Of a stretch of DNA of 34,077 nucleotides, positions 10,896 to 33,497 are shown one piece after another. Under the pieces are notes generated by a model, which was not told the origin of the DNA, did no database searches, and saw nothing but the letters and a program-made list of their open reading frames with translations. The translations under genes and the position numbers were made by a program. The stretch comes from [Clostridium] clostridioforme AGR2157 (GTDB taxonomy: Bacteria; Bacillota; Clostridia; Lachnospirales; Lachnospiraceae): NCBI RefSeq assembly GCF_000424325.1, contig NZ_AUJR01000049.1:1-34077 (forward strand), given 5' to 3'. The first letter of the stretch is position 1. Each line of letters opens with the position of its first letter.

Positions 10896-12068
10896 TTATA
10901 ATTCTGTCTCTTCCCGGAACGCTGCCTCAATGGCTTCCCGTCCCGCCCGGAAGGTCCCCTGAGCCATGAGGCTGCTGCCCCCGCCCCTGCCGCTCAGACG
11001 GCTGTTCAGGGCTTTGCTGAGAGCGCGCATGTCCATCCGGCTGCTGCCCAGGGCATAGTGATATTCGCCGTCCCTGTCATTTCCGGAACACACGGCAGCC
11101 ACTCCGGCCTTGTTTTCTTCATAGAGAATAGTCGCATACTGTCGAACCTGAACTGGGGTTAAATCCTCCTCAAATACAATGAGGGGGGCTGTGCTTTCCG
11201 GGAACTGTCCTGCCTTCAGGGCCAACAGGCTGCTTCCCAGCTTTCCAATCAGGAAATCCCTGTCCTGGCTGTCATTTTTAAGCTTTTCCACTGCATCCGG
11301 CACCTGGATGAGCTTGGCTGACAGCAGGTTGGATATCCTGATTTCATCCTTCAGCCTGTCCCTGTAATCCAACAGGGCCCTGCGGCCGCATAACATGGAC
11401 AAACGAACGCCGCCCTTGTAATGAATCATGCTTCTTATCTTAATGATACCCACTTCACCGGTGTTTTCTACATGTGTGCCGCAGCATGCGCACACATCCC
11501 CGCCAGGCACCTCCACAATGCGTACCAGACCGGACAGTTCCTTTTTGCTTCTGTACTCCATAGTCCTGAGTTCTTCCTCAGCGGGATAAAGCACCTTCAC
11601 GGGGACATTGGCATAGACCAGCTGATTGGCCTCGTCCTCCAGCCAGTCCAGGTCCTCCGGCTCAATGATGCCGTTAAAGTCCACCGTCACTTCCTCGGTC
11701 CCCATGTGAAAGCCGACATTATCGTATCCAAAGTGTCTGTGCACCAGACCGGACAGAATATGCTCCCCGGTGTGCAGCTGCATGTTGTCATACCGCCTCT
11801 GCCAGTCTATGATTCCCTCTGCCAGGGTCCCCTCCTCTATGGGCTGCGCCAGTTCATGGATCACCTGCTCCCCCTTCTCATGGACGGACAGCACGTGAAT
11901 CCCGTTTAAGGTTCCTGTATCATAGGGCTGTCCCCCTCCTTCAGGGTAAAAACCAGTCTGGTTCAGAGTCACCAGCCAGGTTCCTTTCCCGCTCTCCTCA
12001 CAGTGCTCCACCGTGCACATGAACGACTTTACATAGGGGGTCTGGTAATATAATCTGCTTCTGTCCAT
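10896..12068 (-). CDS. Alanyl-tRNA editing protein (AlaX-long, with DHHA1 domain)
   Basis: A stand-alone relative of the AlaRS editing region, which hydrolyses mischarged Ser-tRNA(Ala) or Gly-tRNA(Ala) in the cytoplasm. The N-terminal beta-barrel has GFYPEGGGQPYD. The zinc-binding editing core has HTGEHILSG (first His at 99 from the preferred start) and the downstream CACCGTHV block. The C-terminal third, ending SLMAQGTFRAG, is a DHHA1 domain with the GGGSS glycine run. The frame extends to a TTG at 12074, but I choose the ATG at 12068 (390 residues) because GAGG lies 8 bases upstream. It heads an operon with the AI-2E-family permease; no functional link between the two is obvious. Confidence 0.92.
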   Translation of the reverse strand: MDRSRLYYQTPYVKSFMCTVEHCEESGKGTWLVTLNQTGFYPEGGGQPYDTGTLNGIHVLSVHEKGEQVIHELAQPIEEGTLAEGIIDWQRRYDNMQLHTGEHILSGLVHRHFGYDNVGFHMGTEEVTVDFNGIIEPEDLDWLEDEANQLVYANVPVKVLYPAEEELRTMEYRSKKELSGLVRIVEVPGGDVCACCGTHVENTGEVGIIKIRSMIHYKGGVRLSMLCGRRALLDYRDRLKDEIRISNLLSAKLIQVPDAVEKLKNDSQDRDFLIGKLGSSLLALKAGQFPESTAPLIVFEEDLTPVQVRQYATILYEENKAGVAAVCSGNDRDGEYHYALGSSRMDMRALSKALNSRLSGRGGGSSLMAQGTFRAGREAIEAAFREETEL

Positions 12069-12156
12069 TCTCAAAGCCTCTTTTCTTTTTCATCTGACGG
12101 ACCATCTTTTCCTTCCTTTGTCAGAAAACGATCCGCACAGTATCATGCCTGCCGAC

Positions 12157-12186
12157 ATTATACTATATATCCCGGCCTTGTACCAA
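12157..12186 (-). promoter_or_regulatory. Promoter of the alanyl-tRNA editing / permease operon
   Basis: On the minus strand, TTGGTA (12181-12186), an 18-base spacer and TATAAT (12157-12162), followed by a leader of about 80 bases. Confidence 0.6.
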
Positions 12187-12218
12187 CAAAAATTTTCTAA
12201 ATTTTATCAAATTGTGGA

Positions 12219-12247
12219 AACATGAGCAAGCAGGGCTTCATATGATA
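12219..12247 (+). promoter_or_regulatory. Sigma-K-like (late mother-cell) promoter of the Cys/Gly-rich gene
   Basis: AACA (12219-12222), exactly 16 bases, then CATATGATA (12239-12247). This fits the Bacillus sigma-K consensus mACm-N16-CATAnnnTA at every specified base. The expected start of transcription is about 27 bases before the ATG. No acceptable sigma-A -35 sits at 16-18 bases from the overlapping TATGAT. Confidence 0.55.
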
Positions 12248-12280
12248 CAGTGTAATTAAACTTTATATGGAGGAATTAAC

Positions 12281-12532
12281 ATGAGTGATGTAGCAGCAAC
12301 AAACTGCAGTTGTGACTGTGGATGCGGATGTGGAACAGGAGGCAGCGGATGCGGATGCAATATCATCTGGCTTATCCTGATTCTGTGCTGCTGTGGAGGC
12401 GGCAGCGGCTTCGGACATAGCGACTGCGGTAGCGGTTGTGGCTGTGGGTGCAGCTTTGGAGGCGGATGCGGAGATATTATCTGGCTCATCTTAATCCTGT
12501 GCTGCTGTGGCGGCGGTGGCTTCTGCTGCTAA
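12281..12532 (+). CDS. Cys/Gly-rich two-repeat small protein, possible spore-layer protein
   Basis: An 83-residue protein with 20 cysteines and about 24 glycines, over half its length. It consists of two diverged copies of one unit: a CGCGCG-type segment, a hydrophobic IIWLILIL core and a CCCGGG end (units at about 9-41 and 49-80). The nucleotide sequence repeats as well, with mostly silent differences. GGAGGAA precedes the ATG, and a strong terminator follows, so it is monocistronic. No catalytic motif or classical signal peptide is visible. The sigma-K-like promoter and extreme Cys content suggest a late sporulation structural protein cross-linked by disulfides, by analogy to Cys-rich exosporium proteins such as C. 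difficile CdeC. Alternatives are a metal-binding or a membrane-inserted peptide. Gene reality is strong; function is inference. Confidence 0.78.
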   Translation: MSDVAATNCSCDCGCGCGTGGSGCGCNIIWLILILCCCGGGSGFGHSDCGSGCGCGCSFGGGCGDIIWLILILCCCGGGGFCC

Positions 12533-12571
12533 TTCCCACCTCTAAAAAATCCTTCACCAAAGAATCAAAGG

Positions 12572-12604
12572 AACAGGGAGTGCTTCACCACTCCCTGTTT
12601 TTTC
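12572..12604 (+). terminator. Rho-independent terminator after the Cys/Gly-rich gene
   Basis: An 11-bp stem, AACAGGGAGTG with CACTCCCTGTT (12572-12582, 12589-12599), with loop CTTCAC and a T-rich tail. Confidence 0.88.
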
Positions 12605-12621
12605 TTGCAGGGAAGCCGGGC

Positions 12622-12852
12622 TTATTTGCCGGCCTCACCTGTCTCCCCGGGCGAAAAAGGGCTTTTTGTGCCTCGGTTCTTACCCCCATACCCCTTTCTT
12701 CCCTGTCTCTGCTTTAAGCATTCCTCATCTATTTCATATACTGCATTTCCATCTATAATCAAACGGCTGTACATGGATTTCACTCTCCTTCCATACTTAT
12801 AATATATGCAGTGTCCAGGCTTTGGCTCATTGTGCCGGAAAATAAGTGGCAT
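12622..12852 (-). CDS. Small hypothetical protein
   Basis: A 76-residue reading frame that I keep because its start has a good ribosome binding site: GGGAGGGG, then 8 bases, then the ATG at 12852. A longer version from 12912 lacks one and would overlap the divergent gene start. The N-terminal two thirds look like a folded small protein (MPLIFRHNEPKPGHCIYYKY, a strand-like SRLIIDGNAVYEID and a basic helix), while the last 20 residues are polar and Gly/Lys-rich. It lies convergent to the Cys/Gly-rich gene and divergent from the gene at 12911. I recognise no family. It could still be spurious. Confidence 0.5.
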   Translation of the reverse strand: MPLIFRHNEPKPGHCIYYKYGRRVKSMYSRLIIDGNAVYEIDEECLKQRQGRKGYGGKNRGTKSPFSPGETGEAGK

Positions 12853-12910
12853 GTAACAAGCCCCTCCCGCATAAATTGGAAGCAAAGAAAGAAAAGGCTG
12901 GTGGAAATAC

Positions 12911-13327
12911 ATGAATCCATCTGATGACTATAAACTAACCGACCTGGACTATCTCATAGGCGACCACCATCTGCAGATGATTAAGGCCTCCCTCCCCTAC
13001 CTGGGCGTTCCCGAACAAAAGGCCATCTCCCTGTTTGTCAAGGCTCAGGAACTGCGAAAAACAATGGAGCTCTTTGAGACTGAGGAGGTAGCAACCATGG
13101 GCATCTGCTCCCTGGACCGTCCCCAGGGAAACGGGTCCCTGCGCGACATGCTGAAGGCCATACGTCCATATGGGAATCCCATGGAGCAGGATATAATTGA
13201 CATGGCCGAAACCCTGATGGAGGGCCAGACTCCCATGGAACAGCTGCGCAGGTTCCTGACACCGGAGCAGCAATCCCGTTTTGAGACCATGGAAATGATA
13301 TTCACAGCCATGCAGGCCATGGCCTGA
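12911..13327 (+). CDS. Conserved hypothetical protein (138 residues)
   Basis: A mostly helical, soluble 138-residue protein beginning MNPSDDYKLTDLDYLIGDHH. The N-terminal part contains LQMIKASLPYLGVPEQKAI followed by a long helix with KAQELRKTMELF; the C-terminal part is Met/Glu-rich (SRFETMEMIFTAMQAM). A GGTGG-type site lies before the ATG. It is followed after 44 bases by a second small helical gene on the same strand, and the two probably form an operon. Both look like regulatory or structural proteins rather than enzymes: no catalytic motif, signal peptide or membrane segment is visible. I do not recognise a named family. Confidence 0.72.
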   Translation: MNPSDDYKLTDLDYLIGDHHLQMIKASLPYLGVPEQKAISLFVKAQELRKTMELFETEEVATMGICSLDRPQGNGSLRDMLKAIRPYGNPMEQDIIDMAETLMEGQTPMEQLRRFLTPEQQSRFETMEMIFTAMQAMA

Positions 13328-13371
13328 TACGGCCAATCACTGAACTCCATTACAGAAAGGACTACATAATT

Positions 13372-13653
13372 ATGGATAACAGCTGGAAACAAGACCCCAG
13401 GCTCAAGGCCATGAACAAAGATAAACTGGCCATGCTCACTGAATTTGCGGAGCGGATTGAACATTCAGACAAAAATAACCTGATGGAGGCATTCATGACC
13501 ATCAACATGGAAGCCAGGCAAAAGGGCGTACATTTTAACGACAGGGAGACAGACCTTCTGGTCAACATCCTCAGTTCCAGGATGCCTCCCTCTGAGAAAA
13601 AGAAAATTGATTTATTAAAAATGCTTTCAAAAAAAATGGCAGGGCCGCGCTGA
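13372..13653 (+). CDS. Conserved hypothetical protein (93 residues)
   Basis: A 93-residue, highly charged helical protein starting MDNSWKQDPRLKAMNKDKL, with AMLTEFAERIEHSDKNNLM, METs spaced through the middle, and a basic end (SEKKKIDLLKMLSKKM). AAAGGA lies before the ATG. It follows the 138-residue gene by 44 bases and both resemble each other in style (helix-rich, Met-rich, no motif). The stop lies inside a GC-rich dyad (GGCAGGG/CCCTGCC, about 13638-13667) without a T-run, so transcription end is unclear. Function unknown. Confidence 0.72.
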   Translation: MDNSWKQDPRLKAMNKDKLAMLTEFAERIEHSDKNNLMEAFMTINMEARQKGVHFNDRETDLLVNILSSRMPPSEKKKIDLLKMLSKKMAGPR

Positions 13654-32503: not shown

Positions 32504-33343
32504 TTACTCATATAATTTTTTACAATAACTCATCCGGTACTTTGGGCTGAAATCCCGGACCCCATGATGCCAATCCAGCTCCCGCCACCGCAAATCTCTC
32601 AATAAAAGCTGCAACCAATTCTTATTGTCGTTTCCATTGCCGTTGTTGCCGCTTCCGGTGTTGTCCTTGTTGTTACCATTCCCATTACCGGAATTCCCCT
32701 TCCAGTCATCATCGGTATGCAGGTTGTAGTTCAGCTGGAATATGCGGTTCCCGTCGCCGTCATAGGCCATGGCCACCAGCAGGTCGTGGGCATCACGCAC
32801 TGCCTTAAGACGGTTCTCCACGCTGTACTCATAGCTCTTCTCCACCTTGCGGTTCCCATCCGTTCGGTTTCCATCGGCATCATAGGTGTATTCCACGTTC
32901 TTGTAATGCTTCCCGTCGTATTCCCGGACCTTTACCATCTGGTTCGATGCATTGTAGGTGTACTCCGCGCTTTCCTGCACGCTTCCGTCCGGGCTTTGCT
33001 GCAGAAGATACGGTTTCCCATATCATCATACTTGAACACATAGTCATAACGGCCCTGGCGGTCCTCATTCTCAGTTGCGGTCAGGAGCTTGCCGTCTTCA
33101 TCGTATGTGAAGGCTCGTTTCGTCTCTATGATCTGGAAGTTGTAGATAACGTCCTTGTCATGCTTGTTGATATGCTTGTTGCCGTGCGGGAACAGGTCAT
33201 CGTGCCAGCTCTCATGCTTCCCGTCATGCTTGTCATCCCAGGCATACGCATACAGGCTTTCAACCGCATCCTCCGCCACGATGAACCCGCGGTCATCATA
33301 GGTGTAATCATACCGGCTGACAATCCATCCGCATTCATCGCAC
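32504..33343 (-). pseudogene. RHS/YD-repeat protein, C-terminal part, frameshifted
   Basis: Two overlapping minus-strand frames encode a YD-repeat region. The upstream frame reads CDECGWIVSRYDYTYDDRGF, AFTYDEDGKLLTATENEDRQ and KYDDMGNR; after a one-base shift at 33010/33011 it continues YLLQQSPDGSVQESAEYTYN, VEYTYDADGNRTDGNRKVEK and AYDGDGNRIFQLNYN. It then enters a Gly/Asn-rich linker and ends FSPKYRMSYCKKLYE at 32504. RHS proteins form a shell around a C-terminal toxin in contact-dependent or secreted competition systems. Neither a start nor the N-terminal part is present, and an unrelated tail remnant abuts its upstream edge at about 33344, so this is a decayed fragment. Confidence 0.82.
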
Positions 33344-33497
33344 CTATTGAGTTTGTATATCTTTTACATTTGATGGGTTTAGTGCATTAAAATCTTCAAG
33401 TGTTTTCTCAAATCCACCGGACTTTTCAAAGTTACGAGCCACACCTGCATTATTTGTTGTTTCTTCAGCACCTTCAAGTATATCTTCTATTTTTTTA
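33344..33497 (-). pseudogene. Remnant of a polymorphic-toxin C-terminal region
   Basis: About 50 minus-strand codons, AT-rich compared with the RHS piece, end with ARNFEKSGGFEKTLEDFNAL then NPSNVKDIQTQ and a TAG at 33344-33346. The DF-AL-NPSNV-IQTQ run resembles tails of RHS/LXG/CDI-type polymorphic toxins, which usually go on to a YGPGK-like and glycine-rich end; here it stops at IQTQ exactly at the junction with the RHS core. There is no start. The family likeness is from memory of the motif and remains tentative. Confidence 0.5.

Follow-up and report, generated by a model that had tools for sequence, protein, structure and literature searches.

An 83-residue Cys/Gly-rich peptide of [Clostridium] clostridioforme AGR2157 probably serves as a structural protein in the spore envelope of Lachnospiraceae, made late in the mother cell under sigma-K and cross-linked by disulfides. 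Comparative genomics supports its linkage to spores, its promoter type, its place in a protein family and its association with a second small gene; we infer its location in the spore, the packing of its hydrophobic cores and its disulfide cross-linking. The gene lies in a stretch of 34,077 nucleotides, called the window here. Among the spore-forming commensals of the gut, Lachnospiraceae are a major group, and a Cys-rich peptide with a sigma-K-type promoter in 123 of the 134 SpoIVA-positive genomes sampled offers a concrete gene target in this family. With its spore-type promoter and its occurrence mainly among spore formers of this family, the peptide has the look of a so far undescribed component that cross-links their spore envelope.

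Gene and protein at the locus

The gene and its control elements occupy the following positions of the window.

12219..12222, + strand: sigma-K-type -35 element AACA (AC = 12220-12221); AC in 117/133 anchored family promoters
12227..12231, + strand: CAWGC box (here CAAGC), between -35 and -10; CA[AT]GC-N6..9-CATA in 77/144 upstream regions
12239..12247, + strand: sigma-K-type -10 element CATATGATA; CATANN[AT]T in 133/144 upstream regions
12251..12255, + strand: TGTAA, just past the -10 and close to where transcription is expected to begin; anchored logo, columns 12-16
12269..12273, + strand: ribosome-binding site GGAGG, from the sequence
12281..12532, + strand: two-core Cys/Gly protein, 83 aa, from the ORF list and family comparison
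12362..12394, + strand: core 1, IIWLILIL + CCC, residues 28-38 (alignment A1)
12476..12508, + strand: core 2, IIWLILIL + CCC, residues 66-76 (alignment A1)
12568..12604, + strand: intrinsic terminator, 15-bp stem and T run (-21.5 kcal/mol)

A sequence-only reading of this DNA had described a two-repeat Cys/Gly peptide closed off by a strong terminator, and both descriptions hold. The ORF encodes 83 residues with 20 Cys and 24 Gly, and CCCGGG directly follows each of its two IIWLILIL cores; the layout runs from MSDVAATNCSC through NIIWLILILCCCGGG, a Cys-Gly linker and DIIWLILILCCCGGGG to FCC. The terminator combines a 15-bp hairpin and a run of T. Terminator-like hairpins occur within 100 nt past the stop codon in 99 of 145 family members; one mononucleotide shuffle produced them in 3 of 145. 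Two Rfam matches, far below the gathering score, fell on this hairpin, and an RNA element was rejected.

The same reading had seen a duplication in the DNA. The copies are indeed visible (12360-12402 and 12474-12516, 86% identity over 43 nt), but a recent local duplication was rejected because both cores are present throughout the family. Compared with each other, the two core DNAs have an identity of 0.83 in the window, the median over 143 family members being 0.60; given that two cores occur family-wide, we read the visible repeat as constraint or homogenisation. An AlphaFold2 model of the window peptide contains two short helices at a mean pLDDT of 39, which we judged meaningless and which give no structural support.

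A family of small two-core proteins in Lachnospiraceae

To estimate the spread of the peptide, we searched a sample of 200 Lachnospiraceae genomes covering 199 genera. With the window protein as a single query, relatives were found in 103 genomes; with profile A2 at E <= 0.001, in 127, a count that is partly circular since 24 of the 41 rows of A2 come from the very sample searched. Because A2 demands two cores, single-core members may escape it, and a diverged copy in genome G102 did escape, so that these genome counts are lower bounds. The peptide is mostly single-copy: 120 of the 127 positive genomes have one profile match and seven have two, which in four cases are two pieces of one place. 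In a sample of the class, the profile matched 24 of 291 genomes, three of them Lachnospiraceae (one being the window's own genome), and in a sample of the phylum 1 of 299, again the window's own. A contig scan of named genomes gave at least 19 loci, including Enterocloster, Brotaphodocola, Clostridium porci and Lachnospiraceae metagenome bins. The protein of Enterocloster alcoholdehydrogenati (L019) is identical to one (L024) from a genome of the window's genus, G119; as this species is classed in Lachnospiraceae, we assign the 200 sampled genomes to that family.

The family set, from which seven weak non-family relatives were excluded, holds 145 distinct proteins with a median length of 77 aa and a median of 14 Cys. 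Their composition is dominated by Gly (23.9%), Cys (18.8%), Leu (11.4%), Asn (11.4%) and Ile (8.1%), with Lys and Pro at 0.1% each. The N-terminal signature is MSDxxATxCGC (MSDVAATNCSC in the window), mostly MSD[LV][AST]ATNCGC; an MSD-type start is present in 138 of the 145, all of which have Cys 9. A regular expression recognised two hydrophobic cores, usually 8-9 residues long, in 143 proteins, and the two proteins that it missed (L134 and L177) have both cores on reading, interrupted by Pro and by Cys. Among 289 core matches, Cys comes right after the core in 97% and in second place in 74%. Cys number varies from 7 to 22 per protein and is odd in 69 of 145; in alignment A2 only C9, C38 and C76 are invariant. 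Between the window peptide and locus L012, dN is 0.026 and dS 0.164, and in the 4/5 close-relative pairs that differ, dN is 0.010-0.026 and dS 0.099-0.397. Such low dN relative to dS indicates purifying selection.

The class sample also yielded 21 matches outside Lachnospiraceae (best E 7.8e-8). We read seven of these from Clostridia (L102-L108; E 7.8e-8 to 3.3e-5), whose homology to the family is uncertain. They resemble it in their aliphatic core, in having mostly Cys after the core and in their Gly- or Asn-rich arms, and L102-L105 have two cores; they differ in that the MSDxxAT start is absent from the matched proteins and that L106, L107 and L108 are single-core. L105, matched by the same profile at E 1.5e-5, is Cys-poor, with two aliphatic cores and Lys/Glu/Asp in its arms. 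L106, L107 and L108 encode Cys/Gly/Asn proteins of other Clostridia, and at L107 and L108 a second single-core gene adjoins the first. These adjacent pairs look as if each of the two Lachnospiraceae cores had a gene of its own there; the relationship is uncertain.

The peptide follows sporulation

We used SpoIVA (PF09547), present in 134 of the 200 Lachnospiraceae genomes, as a proxy for the ability to sporulate. Peptide and SpoIVA occurred together in 123 genomes, the peptide without SpoIVA in 4, SpoIVA without the peptide in 11 and neither in 62 (Fisher P 5e-35); with the window protein alone as query, the same table read 99, 4, 35 and 62 (P 2e-21), both P values ignoring phylogeny. Among 16 genomes searched for SpoIIID (PF12116), it was present in three of the four peptide-positive, SpoIVA-negative genomes (G092, G121 and G163); in the fourth, G030 (86% complete), SpoIVA and SpoIIID are both absent. 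The sequence-only reading had stated that homologues common in non-sporulating species would count against it. This pattern was not seen, 123 of the 127 positive genomes carrying SpoIVA and 3 more SpoIIID; with SpoIVA as the proxy, the peptide is nearly confined to sporulators. As for the 11 of 134 SpoIVA-positive genomes without a profile match, one is G102, which has the diverged copy. Since the other ten SpoIVA genomes gave no match, six of them being at least 90% complete, the peptide may not be essential to sporulation.

A conserved promoter of the sigma-K type

The window promoter is an exact AACA-N16-CATATGATA, as the sequence-only reading had it about 30 bases before the gene; the ATG lies 33 nt downstream of the -10. 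Its remark that no sigma-A -35 fits was borne out by a consensus scan of 11400-13400, which gave zero sigma-70-type sites overlapping the promoter. The features of a sigma-K regulon promoter (AC at -35, CATANNNT(A) at -10, spacing of about 15-18) are matched exactly in the window.

The elements are conserved across the family. Within 18-75 nt upstream, CATA occurs in 144 of 144 distinct regions (mean of 41.6 in 100 dinucleotide shuffles) and CATANN[A/T]T in 133 (mean 10.1, maximum 18 in 100 shuffles). The strict -10 CATANNNTA is found in 70 of 144 members (shuffle mean 4.0), CATANNATR being the commoner form. Of the 144 upstream regions, 77 contain CA[AT]GC-N6..9-CATA (shuffle mean 0.2) and 132 have CATA followed by a TGTA-like block (shuffle mean 0.6). 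The full pair AC-N15..18-CATANN[A/T]T precedes 117 of 144 members. Among 217 control ORFs from these loci, each 120 aa or longer and having a motif that resembles a ribosome site, it precedes 8. Conversely, 11 of 144 members are without CATANN[AT]T and 27 without the full pair. The promoter logo was anchored on CATANN[AT]T, so that those columns are circular and the remaining ones independent.

Sigma-E and sigma-K have near-alike -10 elements and differ at -35, which is ATA for sigma-E and AC for sigma-K, as described in PMC3789822. This similarity leaves room for sigma-E control, under which the peptide would be an earlier mother-cell protein. We consider that improbable, because AC stands at -35 in 117 of the 133 anchored peptide promoters (background ~20%) and ATA in 8 (background ~19%), whereas Lachnospiraceae promoters of SpoIVA, listed as a sigma-E gene in C. 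difficile (PMC3789822, Table 2), show the reverse, with AC in 1 and ATA in 7 of 12. These 12, the ones with a -10, come from 20 upstream regions recovered at 30 SpoIVA loci. A further control for sigma-K, dpaA (TIGR02853), matched in 22 of 60 genomes, none above the curated cut-off, and was left unused. The sigma-K assignment stands, and the promoter element, whose lack of conservation would have told against the sequence-only reading, is conserved with a -35 of the sigma-K rather than the sigma-E type. Together with SpoIVA co-occurrence, this supports the spore and sigma-K part of that interpretation.

Two further blocks accompany the -35 and -10. The CAWGC box resembles SpoIIID sites and is possibly one. 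The TGTAA block is conserved across the family about as well as the -35. The signature AC..CAWGC..CATANNAT..TGTAA can serve as a search pattern. With zero mismatches, CATANNATNNAGTGTAA has one occurrence in its own genome, at this gene, and thus marks the peptide gene and no regulon. With up to 3 mismatches, the long motif gave 79 matches in its own genome against 57 for the reversed control, a weak test of a shared regulon motif, as the GAAAC-CAWGC gap in the pattern was 6 and not 5; its one perfect own-genome match, at C30:61890 (L063), is within a longer ORF.

What the protein may do

Under the reading that we prefer, a cross-linked structural protein of the spore envelope, mother-cell RNA polymerase would transcribe the gene late in sporulation and the mother cell would deposit the peptide around the forespore. 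Its two aliphatic cores of 8-9 residues would let neighbouring molecules pack together on the coat or exosporium as it forms; being mostly of this length, the cores would as helices fall short of spanning a bilayer. The CC(C) runs and Cys-Gly arms would then form disulfides within and between molecules, giving an insoluble cross-linked layer. A Cys number that varies from 7 to 22 and is so often odd suits intermolecular cross-links better than a fixed metal site. A self-assembling, disulfide-linked role at the surface is plausible.

Searches of known families returned nothing that fits. The window protein has no fitting model in Pfam, NCBIfam or PHROGs, YjcZ/SscA models included, and 41 members compared with NCBIfam gave only single-member matches to unrelated families; within these searches, the sequence-only statement that no described family has this layout holds. 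Solved structures gave one match, at E 0.35. Plasmids and phages gave no match at E 1e-5, and a mobile-element origin was rejected. Among the open-licence papers listed by literature searches, none describes such a protein in its title or the opening of its abstract. In some public annotations such proteins are presumably the ones named 'chorion class high-cysteine HCB protein 13', which suggests that these ORFs have already been predicted in databases without a function; among open-licence papers, those listed for this name included nothing relevant, the one match being on a silkworm drug.

Comparable materials are known from other spore formers. CdeC and CdeM of the Clostridioides difficile exosporium are likewise Cys-rich and clostridial, lie at the spore surface and are thought to cross-link its outer layer. 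They are described as proteins of 405 aa with 9% Cys and 161 aa with 8.7% Cys, with NPC, CCRQGKGK and RREA repeats, and as not found in Lachnospiraceae (PMC6101409). The peptide differs from them in its median of 77 aa, its 18.8% Cys and its two hydrophobic cores, and the 145 members have neither their repeats nor their lengths. CsxA of Clostridium sporogenes and ExsY/CotY of Bacillus form Cys-rich, self-assembled, disulfide-linked spore layers (PMC7333573). We propose the same mode of action for the peptide, whose Cys content over the 145 members is in keeping with such self-assembling surface proteins, and claim no homology. Spore formers have many Cys-rich proteins in coat and exosporium, for which structural roles have been proposed (PMC7333573). 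The peptide bears on the proposal in that source that unrelated Cys-rich proteins share a tiling job across spore formers; here the median length for that role would be 77 residues.

Some tiny Bacillus proteins of the YjcZ/SscA type are made under sigma-K and consist of a Gly-rich arm and one short aliphatic stretch, with little Cys. The peptide shares the arm and the short stretch, and differs in being two-core and Cys-rich. It could on this basis be a small hydrophobic assembly factor that helps coat proteins assemble rather than bulk cross-linked material. Its small size, mostly single copy and co-conserved partner gene (see below) fit such a role, and the sigma-K regulon of B. subtilis includes yjcZ (PMC517825). 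We nevertheless regard an assembly factor as unlikely, and likewise its action at the mother-cell or outer forespore membrane: Pfam and NCBIfam are blank for the window protein, the 41 members have only stray unrelated NCBIfam matches, and Cys at nearly a fifth of all residues is above what the role seems to require.

The very high Cys content and the CxC runs of the N-terminal arm would also suit a metallothionein-like, thiol-rich metal or redox buffer in the mother cell or coat. Metallothioneins have a fixed Cys number and spacing, whereas the family keeps just three Cys invariant over its wide range of Cys number, its hydrophobic cores are more constant than its Cys, and the window protein has no Pfam match; a buffer is thus quite improbable. 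Least probable is a membrane-active or modified peptide released in sporulation (a bacteriocin or signal precursor), for although the protein is small, with hydrophobic cores and a conserved MSDLAATNCGC N-terminus readable as a leader, every member read retains the two cores, which at 8-9 residues are short for membrane insertion, and the nearest genes, AlaX and three small ORFs (none of the ORFs above the Pfam cut-off), recur beside it in a survey limited to these four genes.

A convergent partner gene and other neighbours

Beyond the terminator of the peptide gene, the window contains the following features.

12622..12774, - strand: convergent small gene, 50 aa, motif LIIDGNAVYEIDEEC; homologues in family loci
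12800..12808, - strand: mother-cell-type -10 CATATATTA of the convergent gene, from the sequence
12911..13327, + strand: 138-aa ORF, recurring in 68/145 family loci
13372..13653, + strand: 93-aa ORF, recurring in 49/145 family loci

The convergent gene lies just past the terminator and encodes LIIDGNAVYEIDEEC followed by a charged variable tail; its 50-aa product has no Pfam or PHROGs match. Homologues are present in 60-89 of the 145 family loci, and all 89 run opposite to the peptide gene. Profile A3 (25 members) of this gene matched 89 of the 200 genomes, and the peptide is present in 87 of these: in 78 the two genes share a contig and lie no more than 7 kb apart (in 67 no more than 1 kb), and in 9 they are on different contigs. 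As for the two exceptions, G102 (99% complete) has its diverged peptide, MSDITATNCGC..., about 3 kb from the convergent gene, with AC-N17-CATAAGAT..GTGTAA upstream, and in G170 the contig ends beside the convergent gene. Among the 60 convergent-gene promoters with a -10, the -35 is AC in 31 and ATA in 1; 29 of 89 have no -10 by pattern. The window's own copy has the -10 CATATATTA, but by reading AC is absent at a spacer of 15-18.

We tentatively suggest that the two genes might form a sigma-K cassette in which the peptide, polymerising by way of short aliphatic zippers fixed by CC disulfides, and its dedicated small charged LIIDGNAVYEIDEEC partner would make up a cross-linked scaffold that replaces CdeC, CsxA or ExsY in Lachnospiraceae spores, a possibility to which we give less than even weight. 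At L122, the minus-strand partner homologue ends in a core-like C-terminus, FCLWLILLLFCCNER, as if a peptide core had been fused on.

Among the other neighbours, AlaX lies beside the peptide in 17 of 145 family loci; this count and those of the 138-aa and 93-aa ORFs refer to flanks of mostly 1.5-3 kb. Both ORFs (12911-13327 and 13372-13653) have weak Pfam matches, all below the cut-off. Farther along the window, at about 32504-33390 on the minus strand, overlapping ORFs in more than one frame carry YD-repeat-like text (EYTYDADGNRT) and, by reading, have a decayed RHS-type look.
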